64,000 nt of DNA from Flavivirga abyssicola (lineage in GTDB: Bacteria > Bacteroidota > Bacteroidia > Flavobacteriales > Flavobacteriaceae). Every line of letters begins with the position of its first letter. Within the stretch, counting starts at the first letter, position 1. Position numbers and translations under genes: made by a program. Positions 1,418 to 21,513 of this stretch are shown in pieces. The stretch spans positions 1,103,001-1,167,000 of the forward strand of contig NZ_CP141266.1 in NCBI RefSeq assembly GCF_030540775.2, read 5' to 3'. The notes under the pieces were generated by a model that did not search any database, had not been told where the DNA came from, and was given only the letters and a program-made list of their open reading frames with translations.

Positions 1418-1933
1418 ATGAAAAAATCCGACTTAAAATTCATTCCAAATTTCTTTGATAGGTACATCGCTTTAATTGATGATAACACTCATTTAATAGA
1501 TGGCTTAAAGACTAATGAAACCATTTTTGAAACCATTTCTGAAAGATTGATTCAATATCAAGACTATAGGTACGAATCAAATAAATGGACGCCTAAAGAA
1601 TTGCTTCAACATGTTATCGATACCGAAAGAATCCTTACTTACAGAGCCTTGTGTATCTCCAGATTAGAACCAAAGGCACTATTGAGTTTTGATGAAAATA
1701 CGTATGCGGATAATTCAAATGCAAACCATAGAAGCATTAAAGATTTACTAAAAGAGTTTAGATTAGTAAGGCAATCGACAGTTCCTTTATTCGAAAGTTT
1801 TAATGAAGACATGCTTCATCGAGCTGGTATGAGTTCTGAAACTAAAATAAACACCTTGGCTCTTGGGTTTACTATTATTGGTCATGCAAAACATCATTTT
1901 AAGGTTTTAAATGAGCGCTACTTTTTAACTTGA
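1418..1933 (+). CDS. DinB-like metal-dependent four-helix protein
   Basis: A 171-residue all-helical protein of the DinB/YfiT fold. The ATG at 1418 is preferred over an in-frame ATG at 1379 because the latter would overlap the upstream gene by 35 nt and adds a basic, unlikely N-terminus. The DinB metal site is visible as LLQHVIDTER in the first third and the C-terminal GHAKHHFKVLNERY, which place the three histidines expected to hold a divalent metal. Family members include thiol transferases (bacillithiol, mycothiol) and many uncharacterised stress proteins, and no specific reaction can be assigned. It directly follows the PNPOx-like gene and is probably co-transcribed with it. Confidence 0.8.
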   Translation: MKKSDLKFIPNFFDRYIALIDDNTHLIDGLKTNETIFETISERLIQYQDYRYESNKWTPKELLQHVIDTERILTYRALCISRLEPKALLSFDENTYADNSNANHRSIKDLLKEFRLVRQSTVPLFESFNEDMLHRAGMSSETKINTLALGFTIIGHAKHHFKVLNERYFLT

Positions 1934-1969
1934 TTATTTGGTTAACTTGTTTATACACATATCATACTT

Positions 1970-5476: not shown

Positions 5477-6181
5477 TTAATTTATCTGAAACGTTATTTC
5501 TTCACCAAAACCATGATTTCCATCACCTGTAACTAATACATTCCCGCTGTTAGTCATGGTATATGATCCTCCTCCATCTCCATAAGTATCGCCCATGAAA
5601 ATTTTATAAGTGCCACTTTCTAGGCAAAACGTTCTACTAAATTTTGTCGTTCCTTCTGGGTACGCCCCCCCTTCAAACAATAAAACATCGCTAGAATCAT
5701 ACAACTCCCAATATTGTTCTTGTGCAAAGTCATCAAATGCAATATCCAGTTGGGTTTCAGGGTATGGGCAAACCTGTTTAATATTAAATGTTATGGGGTC
5801 TCCAATAAACAAGCCTTCTTCTTTATTAAAAGAAAGTACTAGTGTTTCTCCTTCTACTCCAATATTCAAATCTGATATATTTACTGTAAAAACGCCTTCA
5901 TTAGAGTTCGCAGGCACAGAAACAGATCCAGGAACTGTATAGGATGCTGGATCGGCAGTTGACATATCTGTTTCTATATTGATGTTAAATACTCTTTCTA
6001 CATTTGAAATACGTGTTGTATAAATTTTAATGTCATTAGAATTACTACTTTGTATGTCTACTCCAAAATCATAAGACGTCGATTCAAAAGACACATAATT
6101 AATAATATTATGATCGTCACTATCACAGCTATAAAAAGCTAATAGTGGTATTGATAAAAATAAAAAGATTGTTTTTCTCAT
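5477..6181 (-). CDS. Surface lipoprotein of the first SusCD operon
   Basis: A 234-residue lipoprotein with a type II signal peptide ending LLAFYSC (Cys about 19). Residues of about 30-130 are beta-rich and Ig-like, with a Calx-beta-like pattern (YTVPGSVSVPANSNEGVFTV and VEGETLVLSF). The last about 90 residues form a second beta-sandwich with YWELYDSSDVLLFEGG and IFMGDTYGDGGGSY. It lies 15 nt downstream of a susD homologue, in the slot that SusE/SusF-like surface glycan-binding proteins usually occupy. Ligand binding at the cell surface is an inference from position. I do not recognise a named family for the whole protein. Confidence 0.7.
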   Translation of the reverse strand: MRKTIFLFLSIPLLAFYSCDSDDHNIINYVSFESTSYDFGVDIQSSNSNDIKIYTTRISNVERVFNINIETDMSTADPASYTVPGSVSVPANSNEGVFTVNISDLNIGVEGETLVLSFNKEEGLFIGDPITFNIKQVCPYPETQLDIAFDDFAQEQYWELYDSSDVLLFEGGAYPEGTTKFSRTFCLESGTYKIFMGDTYGDGGGSYTMTNSGNVLVTGDGNHGFGEEITFQIN

Positions 6182-6196
6182 AACTAAGTTTATTAA

Positions 6197-7660
6197 TTAT
6201 TGATTTATACTTTCGTCCATATTAGGATTAGCATCTATTTCTGACTGTGGAATAGTTAAATAAAACAATTCACTATCAGCAGGAACATTCACAATTACCC
6301 TATGTACAGCGTCTCTATTAATAGGCCTACTTAATCTTTTGGCATCAAACCATTCAATACCTAATTCGCCATATAACTCTTTGCGTCTTTCCAGTAAAAT
6401 CTCATCCATCAGATCGCTTCCGGAATTGGTGGATAATGTCGCTCCCGGATCTCTATCTTTTTGTAATGCAAAAAGTAAATCCCTAGCTCCAGATTCGTTA
6501 TTTAAATTATATTGAGCTTCAGCATCAATTAATACCATTTCAGACTTTCGCATTAAAGGAACATCTGATGCAAACGTAAAAACAAACTTAGTCGTCACGA
6601 ATTCTCTGTAAGGTGTTGCTGAATTATAAATATCCTGAAACAGCTTTCTAACATCGGTATCTGCAAACTCATCTCTGAAATTTGTATTTATATAGGTGTT
6701 TTGAAGCGATGCTGTTAAATGATCTGTGAATACATGAGGTGCCATCCAAAAAAAATTGCTTTCGTTTGTACCATTTTGAAAATGTCCCCATAGCCAATCT
6801 TGATCCGATAATTCATTAAACCCATTACCCCAATTTGAAGATACCACTGCCGTTGTCGCATTACCTCCATAAGCTGCTTTAGCAGCAGCAGAGGCTAAAT
6901 CCCAATCATCCTGAGTGACTAATAAAACTCTAGCTAATATCCCATTAGCAACAGCTTTATTAATATAACTTTTACCAAGCCTTTCCTCAGGTAAATCCTG
7001 AATTGCAGATTTAAGATCAGACAATATTAAGTCATAAACATCGGTTAATGGGCTTGGAGAGTTACCAGCTGAAGACCCTGTAGCTGGTTCTGTATAAATA
7101 GGAATTCTAGAGCTCGTCCTATCTGTATTATAATTAGGAGCGAACTCTAAGGCTATTTGAAAATAATGAAATGCCCTTATGGCTTTCCCCACAGCAGTAA
7201 ATTCTTTTTTCGTCGCATCATCGAGACTACTATTTGCTAATCCATTAATTAATACATTAGCATAATTAATTATTTCGTAATTAAAAGTCCACGTAAAACT
7301 TGTTCTTCTAAAAGTAGGCAGTCTATTATCATGGGCATAATCAAACCTATAAAATGTAGGTGCTAGGATTAAGTCATTTCCTTTAACTGTCCTCGCAAAA
7401 TACATGGCATATAAGCCCCCTGTATCTGGATCTGAAGTATTTTCACCATCTGTTAAATCATCATCCCACTGCCCTTTATATCTATCATAAATACCTGTTA
7501 TAAAAGACTGTACAATTTCTCTATCTGAAAAGACTATTGACTCTGGAAGGCCTGCCGTATTCTGAGGCTCATCTATAAACTCTTTTGAGCAACTAGACAA
7601 AAAGACTACCATTAAAACCAGTAGAAATTTTGTGCTTTTTGATGTATTATATATTTTCAT
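6197..7660 (-). CDS. SusD/RagB family nutrient-binding outer membrane lipoprotein
   Basis: A 487-residue lipoprotein (VFLSSCSKEFIDEP, Cys about 24) of the SusD/RagB family. The N-terminal part carries the tetratricopeptide-like helices (NYANVLINGLAN, KAIRAFHYFQIALEFAPNY). The C-terminus has the usual LLERRKELYGELGIEWFDAKRL segment and ends PQSEIDANPNMDESINQ. SusD proteins form the extracellular lid on SusC and capture ligand. Its susC partner lies 18 nt upstream. The operon has no carbohydrate-active enzymes, so the cargo could be a peptide or a glycan released by others. Confidence 0.93.
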   Translation of the reverse strand: MKIYNTSKSTKFLLVLMVVFLSSCSKEFIDEPQNTAGLPESIVFSDREIVQSFITGIYDRYKGQWDDDLTDGENTSDPDTGGLYAMYFARTVKGNDLILAPTFYRFDYAHDNRLPTFRRTSFTWTFNYEIINYANVLINGLANSSLDDATKKEFTAVGKAIRAFHYFQIALEFAPNYNTDRTSSRIPIYTEPATGSSAGNSPSPLTDVYDLILSDLKSAIQDLPEERLGKSYINKAVANGILARVLLVTQDDWDLASAAAKAAYGGNATTAVVSSNWGNGFNELSDQDWLWGHFQNGTNESNFFWMAPHVFTDHLTASLQNTYINTNFRDEFADTDVRKLFQDIYNSATPYREFVTTKFVFTFASDVPLMRKSEMVLIDAEAQYNLNNESGARDLLFALQKDRDPGATLSTNSGSDLMDEILLERRKELYGELGIEWFDAKRLSRPINRDAVHRVIVNVPADSELFYLTIPQSEIDANPNMDESINQ

Positions 7661-7678: not shown

Positions 7679-10600
7679 TTAAAATTCTAAAATAATACCA
7701 GACGTTATTGTTTTAGATAATGGAGACCTACTATTGGCAACACCGTTAAATGATTGTTCTGGATCAATTCCTTTATGGGATTGCCAGGTTAAGATATTAT
7801 CTGCTTGTAAAAACAACCTTAACTTGCTTAATCCTACTCTTTCAATTACTGATTGCGGAAGATTGTAACCAAATGTTAAACTTTTCAATCTTACATAATC
7901 ATTTTTAAACAAGAAGCGTGTTGAACGGGAAGCATGATCATTGTTATTAGCTAATAATAATGGAAAATTGCTAATATCTCCGGGGTTTTGCCATGCATCA
8001 AAATTATCTGGATGGGCACTAGCTCCCGGGTTTTGGAAAGGGTTTATTAGTGATGAATAGTCTGAATCTAATAAATAAGCTCCAAAGCTAAAATTGAACA
8101 ATACATTCAAATCAAACTGTTTGTATCTAATAAAGGAAGTAAACCCGCCTTCTATATCTGGCAAAGAAGATTTCCCAGTATCATATCGAGTGGCCCTAGT
8201 ATCAGGATCCGAACTGTAATCCTTTGTTGTGACCCTATCAATTACATTACCTTCATCATCTAATACATCTCTATACCACATACCTTTACCATCGGCAGGG
8301 TCTACACCAGCCCATTCTGGGATAAAGAAATCGAAAATAGAGCCGCCAACTCTGTAACGTTTAGACCCATTTATAATTTGATCTTGTGATAACTTAGTCC
8401 ACTCGTTCTTATTTAGTGCCACGTTAATACCCGTAGTCCATGTAAAATCTTCTGTATTGAAATTAATAGAGCGTAACGATGCTTCCCATCCAAAGTTTTT
8501 AATAGACCCAATATTTGTTACAATTTTATTTACACCTAAAGATCGTGGTAATGGTTTATCTAAAATTAAATCTACAGACTCTTTATTATAGTATTCTAAA
8601 GTACCTGATATGGCTCCATTAAATAATTCGAAGTCTGCCCCAATATTTAAAGATTCTATTTTTTCCCATCTTAAATTCACATCGGCTACACCTTCAGGCA
8701 AAATACCTGGGTTACCTTCATTAACAAAACCTGTTTGAAAAACAGATTGATAAGGAAAAAGGTTTGCGGTTCTATTGTTTCCCAGTTCACCATAAGACCC
8801 TCTAAGTTTTAAATATGTAAGGACATTGCTTTCACTTAAAAAATGCTCTTTAGAAACAATCCAGCTCATACCTCCTGCTAAGAAATTACCCCACCTTGTG
8901 TCTTCATGAAAACGGGTAGATCCATCTCTTCTTATTGAAAACTCTCCAAAATACTTTTCATTAAAATTATAGCTAAGTCGACCTAGATAACTATTAATTC
9001 TTTCCGTAATAACATTACCTCCAACGCTTTCTGGTGTCGTACTGCTATCTAAGTTATCTACTCCTGGCAAAAATCCAGTACCTTGAGATAATAAATCATC
9101 TTGGGTATTTGTATAGGCTTCTGTAATAGCATCAATTGATACATGGTGATTTCCGAAGCTCTTTTTATAGTTTAAAGATTGAATCGCATTTAGAGTTGTT
9201 GTTAAATCTCGATCTTGCGATACACGCCCTTGTACATTAGCTGCAGCACCTGTCTTATCATCATCAAAACTAAAAGAATCGAACAGATAATTCTCATAAC
9301 TCAATCGCGTTTTGAATGTTAAACCTTCAAAAAGATTTACTTCTGCAAAAACATTGGCTAAATAATTAGTTCTTACTCTTCTTTCTTTCCCTAAAGTTAA
9401 AGTTGCCAAAATATTATCATCGTTAAAAACTGGTCTTGTACTATTTACTGCTTGACCAGTAACGAGTCCATTTCCTAAATCGAAAATTCGATCTCCGGCA
9501 TTATCTCTAATTAAATTTCCATTAGCATCACGTAAGTATATGGGATAAATACTTGACACCCCATAAATCCATGAAATTGCTTGTGTTGTACTGTCACTTG
9601 TTTGATCTGGGTTATTTGAACTAGAGCGTGAAAAACTAGAATTAAGACCTATCTTAAACCAATCATTTATCTGAGTTTCTAAATTTAATCTTGTAGCTAC
9701 TCTCTCAAAATCTGAAGGTCTTACCGGACCATCTTCATTCAAATAATCAAAAGACATAAAGTATCTTGTTTTATTGCTACCTCCAGAGACACCAATGTTA
9801 TGATTTACTCTAAGATAATCTTCTCTAATTATTTCATTTTCCCAGTTAGAATTCCATAATAGATTTGCATTTGCTACCAAATTACCATTAGTATCTATTG
9901 GGTTTCCAACACTATATGGATTATATCCTAAATAATCAACCAAACCATTTGTTGCGTTTTGAGCTGCATCGGTAGCAGTTTGACCATTTTCATATTGATT
10001 TGTATTCTTCAAAGCTTGCCAAGTTAGCTTTAAATAATCTTCTGGTTCAGTTAAATTGTGAACTCCTACAGCTGGGTTAGACAGCCCTATCTGTGACCTT
10101 AATGTCACTTTTGGAGCTGAGCCAATGTATCCTTTTTTAGTTGTAATTAATATCACTCCCCCAGAAGCTCTTGAACCATATAAAGCTGAAGAAGAGGCAT
10201 CTTTTAATACTGAGACTGACTCTATCTGATCCTGACTTATCGTATTAAGACTACCATTAAATGGCGCACCATCTACAACAATGAGTGGCCCCCTGGCTAA
10301 ACTTTCACTTGATATTCCTCTAATTCTAATCGTTGGATTACTCCCTGGTTGACCACCTGCTGTTAATAAACTTACTCCGGGTACAGTACCTTGTAATGCT
10401 CTTAATGGAGAGGTTACTTGTTGCGTTTCAATTGTAGTACTTGAAACAACTCCTACCGACCCTACTATAGATTCTCTTGTTTGTGAACCATATGCCACCA
10501 CAATAACTTCTTCAAGAGCCGTTGTATCGTCCTGCATAGTAACATTAATGGTGTTTGACGCACCTACTATGATCTCCTGATTTATATAGCCAATAAAACT

Positions 10601-10819
10601 AAATACCAGAATGTCTCCTTGATTAACCTGAATTGAATAATTCCCATCGAAATCTGTTGAACTTCCATTAATGGAGTTTTTAATCAAAATTGTTGCTCCT
10701 GGTAGTGGTAAATTGTTTTTATCCACAACTCGTCCAGAAACCATTTTTTCTTGTGCAAAAGATGATAACATACCAATCATCAAGAACACTAGAATTAAAT
10801 AGTAGTTTCTTACTTTCAT
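7679..10819 (-). CDS. SusC/RagA family TonB-linked outer membrane transporter
   Basis: A 1046-residue TonB-dependent transporter. It has a signal peptide (about 1-22, ending SSFAQ), then a carboxypeptidase-D-like regulatory domain (about 25-95, VSGRVVDKNNLPLPGATI, STDFDGNYSI, VFSFIGY). A TonB-box-like EEVIVVAYG lies at about 103-111. The plug carries IRIRGISS, PLIVVDGAP and VLKDASSSALYGSRASGGV, followed by a C-terminal beta-barrel ending in the aromatic F of IILEF. It imports ligand across the outer membrane with SusD. Its 263-nt upstream region contains a structured leader shared with the second susC. Confidence 0.95.
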   Translation of the reverse strand: MKVRNYYLILVFLMIGMLSSFAQEKMVSGRVVDKNNLPLPGATILIKNSINGSSTDFDGNYSIQVNQGDILVFSFIGYINQEIIVGASNTINVTMQDDTTALEEVIVVAYGSQTRESIVGSVGVVSSTTIETQQVTSPLRALQGTVPGVSLLTAGGQPGSNPTIRIRGISSESLARGPLIVVDGAPFNGSLNTISQDQIESVSVLKDASSSALYGSRASGGVILITTKKGYIGSAPKVTLRSQIGLSNPAVGVHNLTEPEDYLKLTWQALKNTNQYENGQTATDAAQNATNGLVDYLGYNPYSVGNPIDTNGNLVANANLLWNSNWENEIIREDYLRVNHNIGVSGGSNKTRYFMSFDYLNEDGPVRPSDFERVATRLNLETQINDWFKIGLNSSFSRSSSNNPDQTSDSTTQAISWIYGVSSIYPIYLRDANGNLIRDNAGDRIFDLGNGLVTGQAVNSTRPVFNDDNILATLTLGKERRVRTNYLANVFAEVNLFEGLTFKTRLSYENYLFDSFSFDDDKTGAAANVQGRVSQDRDLTTTLNAIQSLNYKKSFGNHHVSIDAITEAYTNTQDDLLSQGTGFLPGVDNLDSSTTPESVGGNVITERINSYLGRLSYNFNEKYFGEFSIRRDGSTRFHEDTRWGNFLAGGMSWIVSKEHFLSESNVLTYLKLRGSYGELGNNRTANLFPYQSVFQTGFVNEGNPGILPEGVADVNLRWEKIESLNIGADFELFNGAISGTLEYYNKESVDLILDKPLPRSLGVNKIVTNIGSIKNFGWEASLRSINFNTEDFTWTTGINVALNKNEWTKLSQDQIINGSKRYRVGGSIFDFFIPEWAGVDPADGKGMWYRDVLDDEGNVIDRVTTKDYSSDPDTRATRYDTGKSSLPDIEGGFTSFIRYKQFDLNVLFNFSFGAYLLDSDYSSLINPFQNPGASAHPDNFDAWQNPGDISNFPLLLANNNDHASRSTRFLFKNDYVRLKSLTFGYNLPQSVIERVGLSKLRLFLQADNILTWQSHKGIDPEQSFNGVANSRSPLSKTITSGIILEF

Positions 10820-10835
10820 AAAATTAAATGTTTAT

Positions 10836-11003
10836 TTGAATTAGTCAAGCAGATTGAAAAAAGGCAGGTAGTAAAGATGTTTTTTAAGTGACTAATTCAA
10901 AAAATTATACTTTACTATGGAATTAAAGCTTAGAAGAATCTAAAATGTTTGATAAGTAAAGTTCTATTACTGTCCTGCCTTGTTTGCAATTGCAGGAGTA
11001 AAA
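10836..11003 (-). promoter_or_regulatory. Structured 5' leader of the first susC (candidate switch RNA)
   Basis: Read in the sense direction, the elements come in this order. Arm a1 is TTACTCCTGC (11001-10992). Arm a2 is AAGGCAGGACAGTAA (10981-10967). A nested hairpin pairs ACTTTACT (10962-10955) with AGTAAAGT (10916-10909). Arm B5' is TTGAATTAGTC (10900-10890), arm a3 is TTACTACCTGCCTT (10874-10861), and arm B3' is GACTAATTCAA (10846-10836). The susC ATG is at 10819. Arm a2 can pair with a1 (TTACT/AGTAA and CCTGC/GCAGG) or with a3 (AAGGCAGG/CCTGCCTT and AGTAA/TTACT). B5':B3' is a perfect 11-bp helix whose loop contains a3, so a2:a3 plus B makes a pseudoknot. A second copy with compensating changes lies at 19090-19250. 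An alternative is a DNA operator built from repeated TTACTnCCTGC elements. Confidence 0.6.
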
Positions 11004-11082
11004 AAAAGAATAAAGTTATTATTTGATGGTAACTCTTATAATACCTTACTTCACCGAAGATAATTTACCTTGAATTTACTTG

Positions 11083-12645
11083 TTATTTAACTTTTTTAAG
11101 CTGAGAATTTATAAACTCTGAAGGTGTTTGTGAAGTTTCTTTTTTAAATGCTTTATTGAAAGTAACTTTATTATTATACCCTACCTCATAAGCAATGTCT
11201 ATAATATTAAGGCTTCCATGAACATCTTCTTTAAAAATGCTTATGGCTTCTTTAATTCTAAATTTATTTATAAGCTCAAAAAAATTGATATTAAAATGTT
11301 CGTTAATTATTTGAGACGTATTATGCCTAGTTGTATTTAATCTTTGAGACAATACTTCAAGATTAATATTGTTTTCTTTATATATTTTTTCTTCAACAAA
11401 TAACTTAATTAAATTCTCTTTGAGTTCTTGTGATAACGCATTAGTAAGTCCTGATTTTTGATACTTCTCTAAACACATAACATCTTTTAATGCATAATCA
11501 TATTTAAAAATTTCTGGTTGCACATAGGCCATATAAGCAAGATAAATGACCATAGTAGACATAATACTAACCTGTATATAGTTGATGAAATATGGAAAAG
11601 AGAGCAATAATCCACTTACTGGCAAACCATAGATAATATAAGAAACTAGATAAATAATGTGTATTCTATAGATGGTCTTCTTCCATTTATTAATAGGTTG
11701 CTTTTTATCTTCTGAATTAATTTCTTTTTTACCACGACCATACTGAAGTCTTCCTATTAAAACAGCGTATATAACAAGTGATGCTACTTTTGAAAAGAAT
11801 ATTACATATCTGTTATAAATATCATACGAATCATTTAATTCCAACATGAGCTCGATTTTTTCATTACCGGAGAGTGAATACATCGGAAATAAAAACACAA
11901 TTAAAGCAAGTGTTGGCACAAAATGTAATAAATCTATTTTTCTAAATTTAAAATTATACGTAACACTCTTAAAATAGAAGTAAAGCAGCGGCCCGTATAA
12001 AAGCGCCACAGATGAGGTCATTAAATATGTATGTGGGGCTTTATACTGAATATTGGATATGTAAAGAACAAACTCTAGAATAAACATCGAATGCACCCCA
12101 ACAAAACCACTGATAAATAGTTTTGCATAGCGATTTGACTTTTTAGAAAAATTGATGATTACGGTGAAAAAAAAGCCAATTAAAGCAACGTATAGAAACA
12201 AAAATGTAAGCCAGTCTATTTGCAATAAATAAGTTTCGGACAATTCTTTATACTCTTCGGAATCTTTTATAACATCATACGCTCCATTATTTAAAATTGA
12301 AAAGTCTAGCGTATTATTAATATACTTTTTAGTAAAGATTAAAGCATCTTTGGGTTGATCTAAATCTGCATTTAAAATCGCTAAATTTTTAAATATTTTG
12401 ATTGAATCTGAATGCTTTTCAATTAAAGCGTCATTATAAAGCACTAATAGCTCTAACTGAGTCATATCATTACTGATATTTTTCTGCTTTATTAAACTAT
12501 CTAGTTGCACTAAAAATAGATCTGGAGCAACATGTATCTTTGAAGCTGCAACTAATTTGTTAGACATAACAAATAAGCATAAAACAAAAAGAAATATTCT
12601 TGAATTATAAGACATCAAATTGGTCGATTGAGAGTGGTTATACAA
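11083..12645 (-). CDS. Membrane-spanning AraC-family transcriptional regulator
   Basis: A 520-residue protein with an N-terminal signal or anchor, an extracytoplasmic region of about 110 residues, and a block of hydrophobic helices from about residue 140 to 370 (DWLTFLFLYVALIGFFF and others). It ends in a cytoplasmic AraC HTH pair (about 410-515: LEVLSQRLNTTRHNTSQII, then IIDIAYEVGYNNKVTFNKAF). This layout is a membrane-embedded sensor fused to an AraC output, common next to flavobacterial SusCD operons. The start could be 12645 or the ATG at 12615, and the latter puts MSYNSRIFLFVLCLF directly into a signal sequence. It reads toward the first susC, 263 nt away, which makes that operon its likely target. 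The sensed ligand is unknown. Confidence 0.85.
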   Translation of the reverse strand: MYNHSQSTNLMSYNSRIFLFVLCLFVMSNKLVAASKIHVAPDLFLVQLDSLIKQKNISNDMTQLELLVLYNDALIEKHSDSIKIFKNLAILNADLDQPKDALIFTKKYINNTLDFSILNNGAYDVIKDSEEYKELSETYLLQIDWLTFLFLYVALIGFFFTVIINFSKKSNRYAKLFISGFVGVHSMFILEFVLYISNIQYKAPHTYLMTSSVALLYGPLLYFYFKSVTYNFKFRKIDLLHFVPTLALIVFLFPMYSLSGNEKIELMLELNDSYDIYNRYVIFFSKVASLVIYAVLIGRLQYGRGKKEINSEDKKQPINKWKKTIYRIHIIYLVSYIIYGLPVSGLLLSFPYFINYIQVSIMSTMVIYLAYMAYVQPEIFKYDYALKDVMCLEKYQKSGLTNALSQELKENLIKLFVEEKIYKENNINLEVLSQRLNTTRHNTSQIINEHFNINFFELINKFRIKEAISIFKEDVHGSLNIIDIAYEVGYNNKVTFNKAFKKETSQTPSEFINSQLKKVK

Positions 12646-13270: not shown

Positions 13271-14164
13271 TTAATTTGGTGTTAGTTGAAGTGTAAATTG
13301 AATTCCAGCCAAACCACAACATGAGGTTGCCGTATATGTTAAGTCGAGCGTAATTACACCAGTATCTTGATCTAAACTAGTTCCTGCACCTTGCACCCAA
13401 GCAACTTGAGAACCAAATGGAATAGAATTCTCGGTTACAGTAATAGTCCCACAAACATCAGTAAACTCAAGAGCAATAGGGAAATCTGGTCCAAAAATAT
13501 CTGCAGTACCATCACTTAAATTATAGGTTCCTGCTGCAGGCTGCGTTATTGTAACGGGTTGAGGGCTTCTAAAATTACCTGCAATTGGAAGGTTTGATGC
13601 TATTACAGTACTTATATAATTACCTTCTAACATGGTGGGACAAGAAACTGGATAACTTATTTTTGCTGTAAATAATCCAGAATTACTAACTGTAGTACCG
13701 GTATTATCTGTTCCATCGTCATTTAACAGACTCAAAACACGACCATCTGACATGGTAAACCTGGTAGATACTGTTAAAACATCACCAAGTTGAAAATCAT
13801 TAGTGCTATTTAATTCTGCAAAGGCATCAATAACATCACTAGTGCTTAACGAAAAATCTCCAGGTAAGGTTACATTAGTAAATAATACACTTGTATACGT
13901 TGGTCCTGCCAACGTAGAATACGTAGCAATTATATCTGCAGAACTAGGAGTTCCTTGTGCTACCGACGCATTAAAAGCTAGATTTACTGCCGTACCATTC
14001 AATATTTTGGTAAGATCGAATATCTGGTCTGATGCTGCATCTTTAACGAAATTTGGAACAGCACCTGTTTCTAAAACAAGCGCTGAATCCCCACCATCAT
14101 TATCGCAAGAAAAACTAGCGATAATGATTGTAGTTATAAGTAATAAAAATTTTATGTTTTTCAT
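13271..14164 (-). CDS. Lipoprotein of the second SusCD operon
   Basis: A 297-residue lipoprotein (IIIASFSC, Cys about 20) rich in beta strands and small residues. It has no motif I can name, but the layout is two or three beta-sandwich segments: ALVLETGAVPNFV, then VLTVSTRFTMSDGRVLS, then a C-terminal domain from about residue 170 starting CPTMLEGNY and ending ACG-like CCGLAGIQFTLQLTPN. The CC pair near the end is notable. It follows the SusD-like gene by 12 nt and is the third gene of a susC-susD-lipoprotein operon. Its signal-peptide start (MKNIKF) matches the first six residues of the SusD gene upstream, a sign of shared or duplicated leader sequence. Confidence 0.65.
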   Translation of the reverse strand: MKNIKFLLLITTIIIASFSCDNDGGDSALVLETGAVPNFVKDAASDQIFDLTKILNGTAVNLAFNASVAQGTPSSADIIATYSTLAGPTYTSVLFTNVTLPGDFSLSTSDVIDAFAELNSTNDFQLGDVLTVSTRFTMSDGRVLSLLNDDGTDNTGTTVSNSGLFTAKISYPVSCPTMLEGNYISTVIASNLPIAGNFRSPQPVTITQPAAGTYNLSDGTADIFGPDFPIALEFTDVCGTITVTENSIPFGSQVAWVQGAGTSLDQDTGVITLDLTYTATSCCGLAGIQFTLQLTPN

Positions 14165-14176
14165 TTTTTATGTTTT

Positions 14177-15871
14177 TTAATTATCCCAAAACACTCTATA
14201 AGTTGCTAACGTTTTTTGAGCTGGAGCATTTTCATTAAGATTCAACTCATTATCTGGCCAAAAGAATGTTCTATTAAATGGGTTATTTAACGCCGTATCC
14301 GTATCTAACAAAGGAAAACCGTCACCATTATCTAATTGATATTCATTTGTTCCATCAGGATCTGCCAATACGGGATACCCTGTTCTTCTATAATCATTAT
14401 ATTGATCCATCTGATCGCCATAAGTAGCTACCCATTTTTGGGTCATGATTATTTCTAACTGTTTATCTGCGCTTGCAGCAGCAAATTCCGCATCAATATT
14501 AGCTATGAAATCTGTAACTGCAGTAGAGCCGCTTAAAACAGGAACAGTTTGAGTTGTTCCAGTACCTGCTACCACTTGATCTACCTTAGCAAAACTTGCA
14601 GTAACAGCTTCGGTTAGCTTAGCAGCTGGGTCACCAGCAATTAATCCAACTTGCATTAACTCGGCCTCGATGTATAAAAACTCATCGTAGGTAAGTATTC
14701 TCCTTGGTGCTACTCCAGTACCACTAGCTACGGTTCTAGCAAAACCTAAACCATCATCATATCTACCACCACAAGGGAAAATCCCAGGAAAAGTAGCATC
14801 ATTAGCAACAGCTCCATCTCTCCAAGGGCCTACACTACTAAAACGGATTGTAAAGAAGCCTGTAGAAGCATCCCAATAATCGGCTCTAGGATCCCCAGAA
14901 ATAGGGTCTGATTGATCTCTGGGAAACTGTCCTGCTGTTAGTTGGTTAGCCCAATAATATGGTATTCTGGGATCTTTATTGTTAGTATGAATATTAGGAT
15001 TCATTCCCATTAAAATTTCATAGAACCAAGGACTAATGTAATGATCTACTTGAGCGCCACCATAAGCAGCTTGGAATAGCTGATTGCGTTCGTCTTGTGG
15101 TGACACTGTAGCGGTATGAGTAAATTGAAAATCATCTGCATTTGTGGTGAAGAAATTGTTTTCCGCTACCAATGCATCCAATACCGATTGACTAAACAAA
15201 GGAGAAGATGATAAGCGTATTTGGTTTAATAATTTTAACTTAAGCGTATTAGCAAACTTAATCCATTGAGCGGCTGAACCTGCATAATAAAAATCGTCTG
15301 CTCCAGGAAGCAAACCTGCTGGATTACTTAAATTTGTCTTAGCACTGTCAATTAAATCAAAAACGGCTTGATATACTGATTCTGAACTATCAAAAACTGG
15401 ACTAACAGTACCTTCTATTAATAAGGTAGCTTCAGTATAAGGAACATCTCCCCATAAATCTACAGCAACCGACATCATATAGGCTTTTAATAATTCGCCT
15501 ATCCCTTTATAAACTGTTGCTCCTTCTGCATCAGACTGAGAGATTAACGTTTCTAAATCTGTTAAAGTTAAATAAACATTATTCCAATCATTATTAAGAA
15601 CTATATTATCTGCTTTTGTTCCATATTGATCTTGTTCACTTCTTGAAACGCCTTGATGTGTTTGTGTTCCAAGAACTTCACCACTGAAATTATTCCAATC
15701 GGCAAGTAGCGCTACTGTTATTTCAATATTTGGTAACAATTGGTTAATTGGTGCTACTGTTGGGTTATCCGTATCAGTATCGACATCCAAATAGTTACTA
15801 CATCCAAAAAGGGATACAGTCACCATAAAGACTATTAATATGTGATACCTTTTAAATTTTATATTTTTCAT
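14177..15871 (-). CDS. SusD-like outer membrane lipoprotein (SusD-like_2 type)
   Basis: A 564-residue lipoprotein (VSLFGCSNYLDVDTDTDNPT, Cys about 24). The LDVDTDTDNPT opening, the WNNVYLTLTDLETL helices, GIGELLKAYMMSVAVDLWGDVPY and the late QKWVATYGDQMDQYNDYRRTGYP are typical of the SusD-like_2 branch rather than canonical SusD. It should cap the SusC encoded 10 nt upstream and capture an unknown ligand. No polysaccharide enzymes are next to it. This branch often accompanies non-glycan or peptide-type uptake systems, so carbohydrate specificity should not be assumed. Confidence 0.9.
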   Translation of the reverse strand: MKNIKFKRYHILIVFMVTVSLFGCSNYLDVDTDTDNPTVAPINQLLPNIEITVALLADWNNFSGEVLGTQTHQGVSRSEQDQYGTKADNIVLNNDWNNVYLTLTDLETLISQSDAEGATVYKGIGELLKAYMMSVAVDLWGDVPYTEATLLIEGTVSPVFDSSESVYQAVFDLIDSAKTNLSNPAGLLPGADDFYYAGSAAQWIKFANTLKLKLLNQIRLSSSPLFSQSVLDALVAENNFFTTNADDFQFTHTATVSPQDERNQLFQAAYGGAQVDHYISPWFYEILMGMNPNIHTNNKDPRIPYYWANQLTAGQFPRDQSDPISGDPRADYWDASTGFFTIRFSSVGPWRDGAVANDATFPGIFPCGGRYDDGLGFARTVASGTGVAPRRILTYDEFLYIEAELMQVGLIAGDPAAKLTEAVTASFAKVDQVVAGTGTTQTVPVLSGSTAVTDFIANIDAEFAAASADKQLEIIMTQKWVATYGDQMDQYNDYRRTGYPVLADPDGTNEYQLDNGDGFPLLDTDTALNNPFNRTFFWPDNELNLNENAPAQKTLATYRVFWDN

Positions 15872-15881
15872 TTTCTTTTAT

Positions 15882-18800
15882 TTAAAAAGTTAAGTTGATT
15901 TTAAATCCATAGCGTTTTGAAGTTGGCGCCGAAGAGTTTTCAATACCTTGAACTCTACCAGAACCGAAAGAAGTGACTTCAGGATCATAATTAGTATATC
16001 TTGGAACATTTGGTGCAAAATACCATAAATTGTTACCTACCGCACTAAATGAAACTTTGCCAAAGGGTGTCTTATCTAACCATTTTGATGGCACATCATA
16101 CGTTAAACTTAATTCTCTTAAACGATACACGGTACCATCAAAAACGGTTCCTTGGTCTGTTGAGTTTATCCCCCAAGTATTACTAGGCCCACCGCCTGTA
16201 AAATACAAATCGTTAGTATCAATCTGTGTTGTATTTGGTATTCTATTTCCACTCGAATCCAGTGTATAATTTCCATTTACATCGCCATAAAAACCTGGAA
16301 TAACATGTGTACGTTCTCTATCTTCAGTATCCCTGGTAACTCCTCTTCCTAAAAGAGATCCTATACTTATAGATTGTATATCGCCTCCTTCTCTCCAATC
16401 AATCTGAGCACGTAAGCTGAAGCTTTTATAGGTAAATGTATTGATAAAACCTATTTTAAAATCTGGAGTAGGATCACCAATAATGTCACTGACAGGGTCT
16501 TGAAATATCCATCCCGTAGACTGATCGATGATATAATTCCCTTCATCATCTCTAAGATGCTGTGACCCAAAAAAGACACCAAAAGGTTGGCCTTTAATAG
16601 CATATGCAATTTGGTTACCGTCTAACCTAATTCTTTCAAGACCTTCTACCAATTCGGTTACCTCATTGGTGTTTTTTGTGAATGTGGTAAATATATTCCA
16701 TGTGAAATTATCTGTTTGAATAGGTACCAATGTTAATCCAATTTCTACACCTGTATTTGTCATTTCACCAATATTGGTATTAAATGATGTAAATCCACTA
16801 GAACGTGGTACAGATACAGGGGAAATTAAATCGGTTGTTGTTTTTTTATACCATGTAAAATCAACAGCTACGCGTCTTTTAAAAAATTCTAAGTCGGCTC
16901 CAATTTCAATTTCGTCTGTAAATTCCGGAGTAATTTCTTGATCACCTAGACCTACTCTATTTCCAACTACAGGAATTGCTGCAAAAGGAACTCCTAATGC
17001 AAATGTTGTATTTAAAAACTCAGCAGCGGCATCATTACCAACAGACGCCCAACCTCCTCTTAGTTTAGCAAATGTTAGCACATTACTATCTAATTTAAAC
17101 GCTTCAGTAACAATTAATGACAAACTGGCTGATGGGTAAAAGTAAGACCTGTTATCTAACGGTAACGTAGAAGACCAATCATTTCTTCCTGTTCCATTTA
17201 AAAACAGAAAATCTTTGTATGATAATGTTAAATCTGCAAAGACTCCAACATTACGTTTTCTTTCATAAGAATCGTCTAAATTAGATGTTGTAATGGTATT
17301 CGCAAGTGTGTAAATATTTGGAGAAATAAATGTGGTTCCTAAATTCGCATCTCGTTTAAAAGTATTTTGATAGGTATTTAATCCAGCTATAGCAGATAAA
17401 CCAATATCATCTGTTAAATCGTAATTAAAATTCAATAAAAGAGTAGATTCAAGATCCTCATTAACAGCACTATCTGTTATAAGTGTTCCGCCTGTTAAAG
17501 CTGAAGCTATAGAGGCTGGATGCCTAATCTCTCTTCTATTTAAATTATATTTATTGTAACCTACTCTAAACGATGCTGAAATATGATCGTTAATTGGTAC
17601 TCCAATATTTAAATTTGTAACGACTCTATTCGTATTGGTTATAATTTGATCATTTTTCCATGACCAAAGCGGGTGATCCCATCCTGTATTCGGAATAACA
17701 GAACCTCCAGTAGTTGGATTAGTAAAAGGAATCGATAAATCCCAAGCACGTCCTAACCATAATGATCTTGCAAAAGAAGATGACGACCCAGCAAACTGCT
17801 GATTACCAAAAAAACCTCCTACCTGATCTGTATCTGAATAAGCAACAGAACCTCCAACGGTTATGTTATTTGGAAGTTTAAAATTACCCCCAGCAGAAAA
17901 AGACGTTCTTTCATAAGTATTAAAAGGCATGTAACCTTTTTGTTGTAAATCTGAAAGCGTTACACTAAAACTTCCTTTTTCGCTGCTAGAAGAGGCTGTT
18001 ACTGAGTTATCTAAAACAACTCCCGTTTCAAATAAATCTTCAACATTATTTGGTTGTGCCTCGTAAGGTAGCGTTTCTATTAAACCAGGTCCATAAACAT
18101 CTGGAAAAGCTGTTACCCAGCTATTCCAAACAGGAATAGTTTCTAAAGTGTCAAAAGCTGGTCCCCATGACCCATTAGAACCTGCATTAAATTTAAATTG
18201 TGTTCCTTGTCCATACTTGTTCTGATAGTCTGGTAAGTTTGCAATTTTTTCAAAATACGTTCCACTACTAATATTAACACTTAATTTATTATTTGCATCT
18301 TTATTAAGTGATGAACCGGATTTTGTAGTTATAACAATAACACCATTTGTTGCTCTAGAACCATATAATGCTGCTGCAGCCGTACTTTTTAATACCGTTA
18401 CGGTTTCTATATTATTAGGATCTAAACTGGAAATACCAGACTCATATCCTCCACCTCCAGTGCTAAACCCGCTTGGTGGTTGTAATTCTACTGTTGAAAC
18501 TTGTCGGTTGTCGTAAGCAATACCATCAACAATAAACAACGGTTGACTGGCTCCACCTATAGTTGTTTGCCCCCTAATACTAATTTGGTTTGAAGCTCCT
18601 GCAACACCATTAGAGAAATTCACATTAACACCAGCAACTTTTCCTGATAGGGATCTTAATAAATCTGGCTCTGAGTTTTCAATAACTTCCTTAGATTCTA
18701 CCTGACTTACAGCGTATCCTAAGTTTTTAGCATTCCTTTTAATACCAAAAGCAGTTACTACCACCTCTTCTAGTGTTGTTGCGTCCTGTTCCAATGTCAC

Positions 18801-19076
18801 ATTAATTGTATTGGAAGCATTAACGGTAACTTCGGTACTTGTATACCCAACAAAACTAAACACAAGGACAGCGCCTTGACTTGCTTTTATTGAATATTTA
18901 CCGTCAAAATCTGAAGACGTTCCAGATGTGGTTCCTTTAACAAGGACTGTTGCCCCAGGAAGCGGCAGACCAGAAATATCGGAGACTGTACCCGATATCG
19001 TTTTTTCTTGTGCAAAAGATAATTGCACGACAAACGCTAGTAATAGCGTTAGTAATCCACTAAACTTTTTTTTCAT
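15882..19076 (-). CDS. SusC/RagA family TonB-linked outer membrane transporter
   Basis: A 1064-residue transporter with a signal peptide (about 1-22, VVQLSFAQ) and a carboxypeptidase-like domain (ISGTVSDISGLPLPGATV, SSDFDGKYSI, VFSFVGY). A TonB-box-like EEVVVTAFG lies at about 103-111. The plug has ISIRGQTTI, PLFIVDGIAYD and VLKSTAAAALYGSRATNGV, and a long beta-barrel ends in NLTF. It pairs with the SusD-like gene 10 nt downstream. Residues 20-100 closely resemble those of the first SusC, suggesting related origin. Upstream there is a structured leader of the same kind as the first susC and then a divergent LytTR two-component operon. Confidence 0.95.
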   Translation of the reverse strand: MKKKFSGLLTLLLAFVVQLSFAQEKTISGTVSDISGLPLPGATVLVKGTTSGTSSDFDGKYSIKASQGAVLVFSFVGYTSTEVTVNASNTINVTLEQDATTLEEVVVTAFGIKRNAKNLGYAVSQVESKEVIENSEPDLLRSLSGKVAGVNVNFSNGVAGASNQISIRGQTTIGGASQPLFIVDGIAYDNRQVSTVELQPPSGFSTGGGGYESGISSLDPNNIETVTVLKSTAAAALYGSRATNGVIVITTKSGSSLNKDANNKLSVNISSGTYFEKIANLPDYQNKYGQGTQFKFNAGSNGSWGPAFDTLETIPVWNSWVTAFPDVYGPGLIETLPYEAQPNNVEDLFETGVVLDNSVTASSSSEKGSFSVTLSDLQQKGYMPFNTYERTSFSAGGNFKLPNNITVGGSVAYSDTDQVGGFFGNQQFAGSSSSFARSLWLGRAWDLSIPFTNPTTGGSVIPNTGWDHPLWSWKNDQIITNTNRVVTNLNIGVPINDHISASFRVGYNKYNLNRREIRHPASIASALTGGTLITDSAVNEDLESTLLLNFNYDLTDDIGLSAIAGLNTYQNTFKRDANLGTTFISPNIYTLANTITTSNLDDSYERKRNVGVFADLTLSYKDFLFLNGTGRNDWSSTLPLDNRSYFYPSASLSLIVTEAFKLDSNVLTFAKLRGGWASVGNDAAAEFLNTTFALGVPFAAIPVVGNRVGLGDQEITPEFTDEIEIGADLEFFKRRVAVDFTWYKKTTTDLISPVSVPRSSGFTSFNTNIGEMTNTGVEIGLTLVPIQTDNFTWNIFTTFTKNTNEVTELVEGLERIRLDGNQIAYAIKGQPFGVFFGSQHLRDDEGNYIIDQSTGWIFQDPVSDIIGDPTPDFKIGFINTFTYKSFSLRAQIDWREGGDIQSISIGSLLGRGVTRDTEDRERTHVIPGFYGDVNGNYTLDSSGNRIPNTTQIDTNDLYFTGGGPSNTWGINSTDQGTVFDGTVYRLRELSLTYDVPSKWLDKTPFGKVSFSAVGNNLWYFAPNVPRYTNYDPEVTSFGSGRVQGIENSSAPTSKRYGFKINLTF

Positions 19077-19089
19077 TTTATTTATTTTA

Positions 19090-19250
19090 TGAGTTAGTCA
19101 ATGCAGATTGTAAGAAAGGAAGGCAGAAAAGAATATTTTTTAAAGACTAATTCAAAAAAATTACATAAATGAATCCAAAGTTTAGTGCAACTCTGGTTTT
19201 TTGTAAAGCTCTTTTACTGCCTTACCTTTACAATTGCACTAGTAAAAGAA
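19090..19250 (-). promoter_or_regulatory. Structured 5' leader of the second susC (candidate switch RNA)
   Basis: Sense-strand order: a1 CTTTTACT (19248-19241); a2 AAGGCAGTAAAAGA (19223-19210); an 8-bp hairpin CCAGAGTT/AACTTTGG (within 19196-19175); B5' TGAATTAGTC (19154-19145); a3 TCTTTTCTGCCTT (19132-19120); B3' GACTAACTCA (19099-19090). The ATG follows at 19076. a2 pairs either with a1 (CTTTTACT/AGTAAAAG) or with a3 (AAGGCAG/CTGCCTT plus AAAAGA/TCTTTT). The inner half of the a2:a3 helix differs from the first leader (AGTAA/TTACT there) yet stays complementary, which is covariation. B has one A.C mismatch. The element CAATCTGC and an AATTG segment after a1 are conserved in both leaders. Confidence 0.6.
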
Positions 19251-19611: not shown

Positions 19612-20394
19612 ATGAGTAATCTTATTAAAGCTTTAATTATTGATGATGAAAGCTTAGCAAGAAAAAGAATCTCAAATTTGTTAAGTGATATAAAAGAAAT
19701 TGAAGTACTTGAAGAGTGTAGTTCTGGTAAAGAGGCTATAAACGCCATCTCTAATAAAAAACCTGACTTAATATTTCTTGATATTCAAATAACGGATATG
19801 ACAGGGTTTGATGTTTTAAAACAAATAGATCCCTTAACCAGACCCTTAATCATTTTTATTACTGCTTTTGATGAATTTGCTCTTAAAGCTTTTGATTTTT
19901 TTGCTTTTGACTATTTATTGAAGCCTTTTAAAGATGAACGCTTTTTTCAATCTACAAATAAGGTCATTGAGTTACTTACTTCTAACAAATCGAATATATT
20001 AAATAGAAAAATAAGTGATTTGCTCCGTTATATTGAAAATCCTAACGAAGATTTTCCAGAAACTAAAAAAACCAAACTGGCCATAAGAGCTAACGGCAAA
20101 ATTTCTTTTATTGAAAAAAATAATATTAAGTACATACAAGCTTCAGGATATTATGCTGAGATTTTTACTGAACACAAAAAATTTCTTTTAAGAGAATCCC
20201 TAAACTCTTTATTAGATCAATTAAAACCTTATAATTTTGCCAGAATTCACAGATCTACAATTATAAACACTTCCTTTATTTCTGAAGTGCTATACTCAAA
20301 CTATGGTGAAATTGATGTAAAAATGCAGGATGAAAAATTATTTAGAATTAGTAAGACTTATAAAAAAGAGTTTCAGAAAAAAATGGGGATTTAA
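19612..20394 (+). CDS. LytTR-family response regulator
   Basis: A 260-residue two-component regulator. The receiver domain (about 4-120) has the acidic pocket IIDDESLARKR, the phosphoacceptor D57 in LIFLDIQITDMTGFD, ITAFDEFALKAFDF and the lysine of DYLLKPFKDERF. The LytTR DNA-binding domain (about 155-258) shows IKYIQASGYYAEIFTE, FARIHRSTIINTSFI and the C-terminal ISKTYKKEFQKKMG. Two paralogous LytS-type kinases follow at once: the first starts 3 nt after its stop, the second 132 nt after that. It lies divergent to the second susC operon, which is a plausible target, though LytTR regulators also control envelope and exopolysaccharide genes. Confidence 0.92.
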   Translation: MSNLIKALIIDDESLARKRISNLLSDIKEIEVLEECSSGKEAINAISNKKPDLIFLDIQITDMTGFDVLKQIDPLTRPLIIFITAFDEFALKAFDFFAFDYLLKPFKDERFFQSTNKVIELLTSNKSNILNRKISDLLRYIENPNEDFPETKKTKLAIRANGKISFIEKNNIKYIQASGYYAEIFTEHKKFLLRESLNSLLDQLKPYNFARIHRSTIINTSFISEVLYSNYGEIDVKMQDEKLFRISKTYKKEFQKKMGI

Positions 20395-20397
20395 TTT

Positions 20398-21513
20398 ATG
20401 ATTAAAAGGGTAAAACCATATTTAGATTTAAAACTTATAGGCATTTTATCTTTGTTCTATTTCATATTTGTAGTTATTTATGCTTCTAAGAATGCTTATT
20501 TAAGAATCTATTCTAAAAGACAGGTGGATTGGGGTGAATTTATTTTTGCAAATTTATTAGACTGGGCAATTATCGTCATTTTTATGATGTTTATAGCTTT
20601 TACTACCAAACTTTTGATGCAGAAAAAGACAAAATTAGTTTATATTATATCTATACATTTATTTTTCTCATTTTTTATTGGTGCTTTTACAATTGGCTTG
20701 TCACAAATTGTGGAACAACTTAAAAGCCCCTGGCCAATGAAAGAAAACTCTATCGCCAGTTTATTTACATCTTATATAAGACTTATAGATTTACATTTCT
20801 TAATTTATATGTCCTTAGTAACCATGATTTATATGTATTATTATTTTCAAAAAATTCAAGAAAGTAAAATACAAACCATAAAACTACAAGATCAACTTTC
20901 AAAAACGCATTTAAAGTTTTTACAGACTCAAATGCACCCACATTTTTTATTCAATACTTTAAATGGGATCCACTCCTTAATGGACATAAACATTGCAAAA
21001 TCTAAAAGCATGGTAGTCGATCTAAGTGATTTACTAAGAAATGTTTTAGAAAAAAAAGATCAAAACCTCATTGAATTACAAGAAGAATTAGAAATACTTA
21101 AAAAATATATTCACATTAAAAAGGCTCGTTTCTCTGATCAATTAAATATTCACCTTAATATTGAAGAGGGCTTAGAAAATGTTTTGGTGCCAAATATGTT
21201 ATTACAACCCATTGTAGAAAACTCTACAAAACATGGTTATGATAAAGAACATTTATCACTCGACATAACTATAAACATTTTTAGAAAAAATGATAAGCTT
21301 ATAGTGAAGATTAAAAATAATGGTAAAGAATTGAAAGATAAACTTTCTGTTCTATTAAAAAAAGGGACTGGTCTTAATAACATAAAAGAAAGACTAGACT
21401 CTCTTTATAACAATAATTATAAGTTAAAAATTTATAACAAATCAAATAGTGTAATTACTGAAGTAAATATCCCGATTAAATTGTCTATATCCCAAATCGA
21501 AAAAGGTTTTTAA
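20398..21513 (+). CDS. LytS-type sensor histidine kinase, paralogue 1
   Basis: A 371-residue kinase of the His_kinase (LytS/YehU) type. Four membrane helices lie within the first 150 residues (about 13-29, 53-72, 80-100 and 130-150), with no large extracytoplasmic domain. A coiled-coil linker (KIQESKIQTIKLQDQL) leads to the phosphorylation motif QTQMHPHFLFNTLNGIHSLM with the His of HPHF at about 182. The ATPase N-box is VPNMLLQPIVENSTKHGY and the glycine loop is GTGLNNIKERL. It probably phosphorylates the LytTR regulator encoded 3 nt upstream. The C-terminal SISQIEKGF is shared with its paralogue. Confidence 0.9.
   Translation: MIKRVKPYLDLKLIGILSLFYFIFVVIYASKNAYLRIYSKRQVDWGEFIFANLLDWAIIVIFMMFIAFTTKLLMQKKTKLVYIISIHLFFSFFIGAFTIGLSQIVEQLKSPWPMKENSIASLFTSYIRLIDLHFLIYMSLVTMIYMYYYFQKIQESKIQTIKLQDQLSKTHLKFLQTQMHPHFLFNTLNGIHSLMDINIAKSKSMVVDLSDLLRNVLEKKDQNLIELQEELEILKKYIHIKKARFSDQLNIHLNIEEGLENVLVPNMLLQPIVENSTKHGYDKEHLSLDITINIFRKNDKLIVKIKNNGKELKDKLSVLLKKGTGLNNIKERLDSLYNNNYKLKIYNKSNSVITEVNIPIKLSISQIEKGF

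Follow-up and report, generated by a model that had tools for sequence, protein, structure and literature searches.

The leader preceding the first susC gene of the analysed window (a 64,000-nucleotide stretch of Flavivirga abyssicola DNA) is quite probably a trans-acting structured antisense RNA, which would be made from the promoter of an alternative susCD pair and would repress a distant gene, here called the core susC. At the level of sequence, this RNA forms a family characterised by covarying stems, linkage to susC genes, complementarity to and co-variation with the core susC start, and the occurrence of copies that lack a susC and lie beside AraC-type genes.

Two leaders with one predicted fold

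The susC1 gene lies on the minus strand with its ATG at 10819, and leader 1 is consequently read from 11003 down to 10820. A second copy is placed directly 5' of susC2 (minus strand, ATG at 19076), and the two leaders can be aligned end to end (Table 1). The folds of leaders 1 and 2 each beat 200 of 200 shuffled sequences (dinucleotide shuffles for leader 1; z of -4.28 and -4.49, respectively), and both leaders share one predicted shape, with P0 and P1 outside and stem P3 and hairpin P5 inside. In the predicted fold, P5 is a stem of a T-run with an A-run, and GAATTAGTC is exposed in its loop. The search of the whole window against Rfam 15 returned two tRNAs only and no known family at the leaders; at E<=10, the region 10700-11200 gave seven chance-level matches with no bacterial family among them. 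The first-pass annotation, which knew of no described riboswitch or attenuator of this layout before a SusC gene and had read the arms as structured RNA in this sense, is borne out on both points: as the folds beat shuffled sequences and the stem covaries, the arms are best explained as a structured, susC-linked RNA of about 150 nt.

Table 1. Genes, leader RNAs and leader parts (window coordinates, except for the core susC)
Feature	Position	Strand	Remarks
susC1, TonB-dependent transporter	7679..10819	-	Pfam Plug, CarbopepD_reg_2
susD1, after susC1	6197-7660		Pfam SusD families
ORF after susD1	5477-6181		no Pfam family matched
susC2	15882..19076	-	Pfam match
susD2, after susC2	14177-15871		Pfam match
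ORF after susD2	13271-14164
AraC-type regulator adjoining leader 1	11083..12645	-	HTH_18, HTH_AraC
LytTR response regulator diverging from leader 2	19612..20394	+	Pfam match
Histidine kinase beside the LytTR gene	20398-21513		Pfam match
Core susC, own genome	L061 9483-12677	-	2.7 kb from ribosomal protein S12 gene
Leader RNA 1, 5' of susC1	10837..10993	-	cmsearch R1 141.6 bits; span of the covariance model; model seed
Leader RNA 2, 5' of susC2	19090..19237	-	cmsearch R1 134.1 bits
P0, 5' strand GCAATTG	10987..10993	-	partner CAATCTGC at 10856-10849; 94-98% of cells paired (alignment A4)
P1, 5' strand (arm a2) AAGGCAGGACAGTAATAGA	10981-10963	-	covarying stem with 10877-10861
P1, 3' strand (arm a3) TCTTTACTACCTGCCTT	10877-10861	-	covarying stem with a2
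Stem P3 and loop	10910..10961	-	CTTTAC 10961-10956 with GTAAAG 10915-10910
Antisense block 1 CTAAGCTTTAATTCCAT	10917..10933	-	complement of the core susC AUG and its first codons
Antisense block 2 TATAATTTTTTGAATTAGTC	10890..10909	-	complementary to core susC 5'UTR; doubles as helix B 5' arm
Helix B, 5' arm GAATTAGTC	10898-10890	-	pairs with GACTAATTC; 11 bp including flanking TT/AA
Helix B, 3' arm GACTAATTC, before susC1 ATG	10846-10838	-	cis partner of block 2
Arm a1 TTACTCCTGC	10994..11003	-	probable promoter box just upstream of the RNA start, rather than an RNA arm

The two leaders differ in the upstream element and in the type of the neighbouring regulator. Upstream of leader 1 (11028-11070, minus strand), a conserved TTCGG..GTAAGGTATTATAAG..TTACC element is found, which is probably the site of the AraC-type regulator. 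A CCGTTT[TA]AAAGTAC-like upstream word is common to the leaders in L142, L144, L146, L149, L163, L166 and L168 and differs from the element, GTAAACTATTATAGG..TTACC-like, that lies upstream of numerous others; several promoter types seem to drive the same RNA.

Distribution of the family and covariation of its stems

The first-pass annotation had proposed a covariance-model search of flavobacterial genomes, and this search yielded many further susC-linked copies as well as covariation in a2:a3. The model, R1, was built from 18 leaders. At E<=0.1, it matched 76 of the 397 genomes of the family Flavobacteriaceae, partial matches to core susC starts included, while full-length matches at E<=0.001 occurred in 42 of 397 (a hand count from the match list). 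From the fetched loci, 67 matches at E<=0.001 were collected, the 18 seeds among them, and 62 of these copies end 11-44 nt (median 17) upstream of the ATG of a susC, called as such when blastp matched its protein to that of susC1 or susC2; in many cases the downstream SusC is only 30-40% identical to these two. A further susC-linked copy was found in G113 (39.2 bits). All 12 searched genomes of the own genus have a leader match, and in the nearest named records, Flavivirga rizhaonensis (97% SusC identity) and F. aquimarina, the RNA lies just 5' of that susC. Two wider samples were scored under strict filtering, with only a few candidates taken from each genome. The sample of the order had matches at E<=0.01 in 14 of 296 genomes, none outside the own family and many being core starts, not RNA; that of the phylum had matches at E<=0.001 in 2 of 395 genomes, which again belong to the own family.

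In an alignment fitted to the structure, the stem pairs are 90.2% paired and changes on both sides were observed in 34 of 36 pairs, with 199 cells changed on both sides versus 45 +/- 8 after shuffling and far lower values in slid controls. The a2:a3 pairing claimed at first corresponds to the core stem P1, one of these covarying stems, and P3 shows changes on both sides in 6 of 6 pairs (alignment A4). The unfitted alignment of 18 leaders follows the same trend with less power (6 pairs versus 2.1 shuffled, with slid controls reaching 5), and RNAalifold alone, run on this unfitted alignment, recovered no more than 16 pairs, with a small term for covariation.

Arm a1, helix B and the putative switch

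Other parts of the initial reading fared differently. The three-arm switch, in which a2 would pair with either a1 or a3, is not upheld, as the pairing of a1 with its own a2 was no better than with swapped partners (-0.05, sd 0.20, 67 homologues; 40% of permutations as low). A terminator at a3 is likewise not conserved, a run of at least five T following the arm in only 25 of 65 leaders. With neither alternative arms (67 leaders) nor a T-run terminator (65 leaders) conserved, a cis-acting riboswitch or attenuator is not supported as the main function.

Arm a1 lies directly upstream of the near-invariant GCAATTG, at a conserved T-rich box. In 63 of 67 copies, a T[AT]nnTTT[GA] box, easily matched in T-rich sequence, lies within the 14 nt that precede the model start, and the strict form TAnnTTTG occurs in none of the 67. 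In F. psychrophilum, the sigma-A box is reported at -12 to -5 (PMC9723704), which would place the RNA start near the G of GCAATTG and leave most of a1 untranscribed. On this sequence-based reasoning, a1 is probably a promoter rather than an RNA arm.

Helix B, described as 11 bp enclosing a3, is present as such in leader 1, and its third pair is non-standard in 10 of 16 scored leaders. What did not stand is its rank as the main partner of GAATTAGTC, since the core susC 5'UTR fits this arm better. Block 2 pairs 9/9 with the core GACTAATTC, and over the family the core 5'UTR beats the best downstream cis site for the nine-base arm in 47 of 64 leaders, equals it in 14 and is worse in 3 (two leaders with the arm off-pattern were left out). 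Helix B may still play a secondary part in cis, as suggested by a slight cis fit and by the fully paired cis helix in L147, L148 and L155.

The core susC start as the probable partner of the loops

Read as reverse complement, the leader loops match the 5'UTR, AUG and first codons of another susC, the core susC of MKTKFSG type, and the partial matches of the model (about positions 30-115) correspond to the core susC start in this same inverted sense. The match of block 1 to the core susC is weak in leader 1 and strong in leader 2. The core gene lies at about G000:C1:2734677 and the two RNAs elsewhere in the genome, at 1113837-1113993 and 1122090-1122237. In a set of 50 core starts, drawn from 35 genomes, there is very little variation from the 5'UTR through the AUG into the first codons, even at silent positions; GACTAATTCAAATAATTATAAAATGAAAACAAAGTTTAGTGGAATT is typical, and several paralogous starts differ. 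A promoter-like sequence, TTG-N20-GATTTTTG, is often found upstream. Core starts in L061, L062, L063, L102-L113 and L180-L199 run into AACGCTATTACTAGCGTT, which is able to form a small hairpin. A second GACTAATTCAAA site is present 0.5 kb from the own-genome core start (L061:13149-13160, minus strand), followed by what appears by eye to be a truncated susC fragment.

The matched sequence is not a general motif of susC 5'UTRs. In the own genome, 33 susC genes passed the family cut-off and 30 starts were read; GACTAA[CT]TC is absent from 27 of these, which rules out such a motif, and the three starts that carry it are those of susC1, susC2 and the core susC. The start in L099, flagged by a looser pattern, has only AACTAATTCAAA.

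Core starts are equally conserved in genomes where the leader RNA was not found. The exact core pattern is present in 33 of 34 core-start genomes without the RNA, a count that gives no frequency, as the genomes were preselected for a core-like start. In those 34 genomes, model R2 with laxer filters gave no full-length non-core match better than E 0.04 (G094). This conservation implies that there is either another constraint on the core start or a set of other RNAs. In G094 (L295, match 1789-1937, plus strand; weak R2 match, 30.9 bits), TTAATTATTTGAGTTAGTCA lies near an apparent CDS end and is followed by a terminator-like hairpin; this element is possibly a different antisense RNA against the core susC. 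In G065 (L246, 1501-1620, plus strand), a stem-loop with TTATTTGAATTAGCTATC and a weak R2 match (34.3 bits) is possibly a stand-alone relative.

Strength and co-variation of the predicted pairing

Among 85 start regions of the own genome (a few entered twice), the core susC ranks first for both leaders: -33.2 for leader 1 (next susC1, -22.8; median -11.4) and -49.5 for leader 2 (next susC2, -29.9; median -12.3). Over the family, 60 of 61 leaders have a stronger predicted duplex with the core start than with their downstream susC (mean energies of -41.3 and -20.5 kcal/mol; five copies without a susC within 50 nt and G360 were left out). The block-2 arm has an unpaired value of 0.62 (n=65) versus 0.35 for the RNA as a whole, and block 1, computed with a narrow pattern for 7 leaders only, of 0.55.

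The own-versus-swapped test covered 66 of the 67 leaders (G360, having no core start, was left out) from 51 genomes with 40 distinct core starts, one start per genome, the most MKTKFSG-like, being used. The centred own-genome energy was -5.93 kcal/mol versus 0.00 +/- 0.66 in permutations, none of the 5000 being as low. Relatedness was only partly controlled in this test; when permuted within two target classes only, the expectation was -3.05 +/- 0.46 and again 0/5000 were as low. Both blocks carry the signal on their own (AUG/codon block -3.11, 5'UTR block -2.58, each 0/5000) and pass within classes too. Reverse-complemented targets gave no signal (0.34) and reversed targets a slight one (-0.51; 53/5000 overall, 558/5000 within classes). 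The own target ranked poorly among the 51 for L160_10194 (41), L167_1580 (36) and L158_8750 (34). Inspected by eye, joint changes of leader and core are lineage-specific, as in G119 (CTAAATGG), G373 (GATTTAATGG), G401, G234 and G262 (AAACTTAATGG) and the AGCTAATTC genomes. Repeated copying of the loops from the core susC is a possible source of the match.

Copies without a downstream susC

Five of the 67 copies are not followed by a susC, and two of these precede convergent genes. In L162 (G203) and L159 (G163), an AraC-type gene and the RNA are followed by a convergent signal peptidase II gene, in L159 with only a 63-codon ORF between the RNA and that gene. The window has the order acyl transferase, signal peptidase II, susCD, RNA and AraC-type gene, and by this comparison of gene orders L162 and L159 look like the window locus minus susCD. 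Both keep matching loops though no gene follows on the same strand. The terminator-hairpin scan found none in L162 or L159.

In L151 (G273) and L152 (G424), both of genus g7, the RNA is followed 136-141 nt on by an amidohydrolase gene of the same strand, and the AraC-type gene beside the RNA was confirmed in L151. A hairpin GACTGC..GCAGTC followed by six T was read on the RNA strand of these loci, whereas the scan calls this hairpin on the opposite strand only. The g7 copies may be the leader of the amidohydrolase gene. The remaining copy, L158:8750-8885 (minus strand, G129), is a weak match by an AraC-like gene that lacks both susC and matching loops and is perhaps a decayed copy. The arm matching the core is kept in 4 of the 5 copies without susC.

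Alternative explanations

The position of 62 of 67 copies just before a susC would also be expected of a cis-acting leader, in which the GAATTAGTC:GACTAATTC pseudoknot before the own ATG controls the downstream susC and the likeness to the core is merely inherited. Among the 18 seeds, 91.9% of helix B is paired, and the helix is complete, with G-C replacing A.C, in L147, L148 and L155; in fitting the downstream susC start, own leaders have a slight advantage over swapped ones (-1.41, 2/5000). Yet where the arm has changed to GAATTAGCT, it is the core 5'UTR that has changed to match (AGCTAATTC), the cis arm remaining unchanged; moreover, cis duplexes are about half as strong as core duplexes, copies without susC exist, and no terminator or alternative arm is conserved. 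We consider control confined to the downstream susC improbable as the explanation of the family. The same duplexes would also serve in the reverse direction, with core susC mRNA binding the leader and altering expression of the alternative susC, all the more as both the cis arm and the core 5'UTR are possible partners of block 2. This direction appears very unlikely, as the duplex covers the AUG of the core susC and not that of the downstream one, and as L162 and L159 keep matching loops where no same-strand gene follows.

An entirely different reading takes the leader not as RNA but as a DNA element, be it three operator sites, named as the main rival in the first-pass annotation, or what is left of a susC shufflon or invertible promoter. 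The middle of the leader does repeat a susC start region in inverted orientation, as invertible loci would, and AAGGTAAGG-like words recur upstream in loci of the leader-1 type. However, the stem arms covary as pairs, leaders 1 and 2 have a common RNA but different upstream elements and types of regulator, so that one binding word with one regulator was not found, and the loop-by-loop match to and co-variation with one distant mRNA start would be left unexplained. As to a shufflon or invertible promoter in particular, the other GACTAATTCAAA sites of the core locus are, by eye, a gene start and a susC fragment, and the likeness obeys pairing rules genome by genome; both observations led us to set it aside. 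Overall, a DNA element is very unlikely here.

A proposed antisense mechanism and its relatives

The antisense RNA reading accounts for extended complementarity to a distant translation start that co-varies, as judged by permutation, with the RNA. In the proposed mechanism, the alternative susCD promoter would transcribe the leader RNA, and the scaffold of P0, P1, P3 and P5 would present two loops; block 1 would bind the AUG and first 6-7 codons of the core susC and block 2 its 5'UTR. With the 5'UTR, the AUG and the first codons held in a duplex, ribosome entry on the core susC mRNA would be expected to be blocked and its translation lowered; the actor could be a short RNA or the long mRNA. 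Switching on the alternative SusC would then bring the core SusC down, tying an exchange of outer-membrane transporters to one promoter. We also lean, with less assurance, towards a bifunctional leader, in which the 5' end of the alternative susC mRNA is itself the two-loop antisense RNA silencing the core susC, and the unit of regulator and RNA can lose susCD, leaving a free antisense RNA.

Repression of susC translation at the start codon is a known mode. FopS RNAs of Bacteroides thetaiotaomicron, as described in PMC11697453, bind near the start codon of susC mRNA and repress its translation; they are about 65-70 nt long, carry an extended seed close to the 5' end, associate with the RRM protein RbpB, and are of intergenic (9), antisense (4) or 3'UTR (1) origin. 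The leader RNA resembles FopS/GibS in being a multicopy RNA that would act on PUL transporters at susC starts. It is set apart, by comparison with that description, by its length of about 150 nt (154-157 model positions), its two loops and its usual place as another susC's leader. No RRM_1 match was found in the own genome at E<=0.001 (Bacteroides ihuae, as control, was positive), so that an RbpB-like partner is not evident. Cis-encoded antisense RNAs on Bacteroides PUL genes (Cao et al. 2016, as cited in PMC9723704) likewise act antisense on PUL genes but are encoded opposite their target, whereas the leader RNA lies elsewhere. Rfp18, whose targets are metalloproteases and an adhesin (PMC9723704), and other flavobacterial RNAs are also regulatory with strong folds, but, compared by their descriptions in the portion of that source at hand, none is described as a susC leader. 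A literature search, in which subscription journals were thinly covered, found no such RNA as the leader of another susC. Porin-switching sRNAs of the MicF type, which are enterobacterial and free-standing, lower one outer-membrane protein in favour of another; the leader RNA differs in being mostly the replacement transporter's own leader.

SusC-type transporters have a prominent place in the outer membrane of Bacteroidota and, to our knowledge, it is poorly understood how cells make room when they switch to a new SusC. Fjoh_0403-0405 is the most abundant SUS complex of Flavobacterium johnsoniae (PMC12611786); if this is the core susC, a switch to an alternative SusC would release capacity in the membrane and in assembly. 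The leader RNA would provide a specific RNA circuit for transporter choice in Flavobacteriaceae, with mapped loops and target and, if it acts as proposed, RNA silencing of susC starts would, together with FopS, exist in two unlike forms within the phylum.
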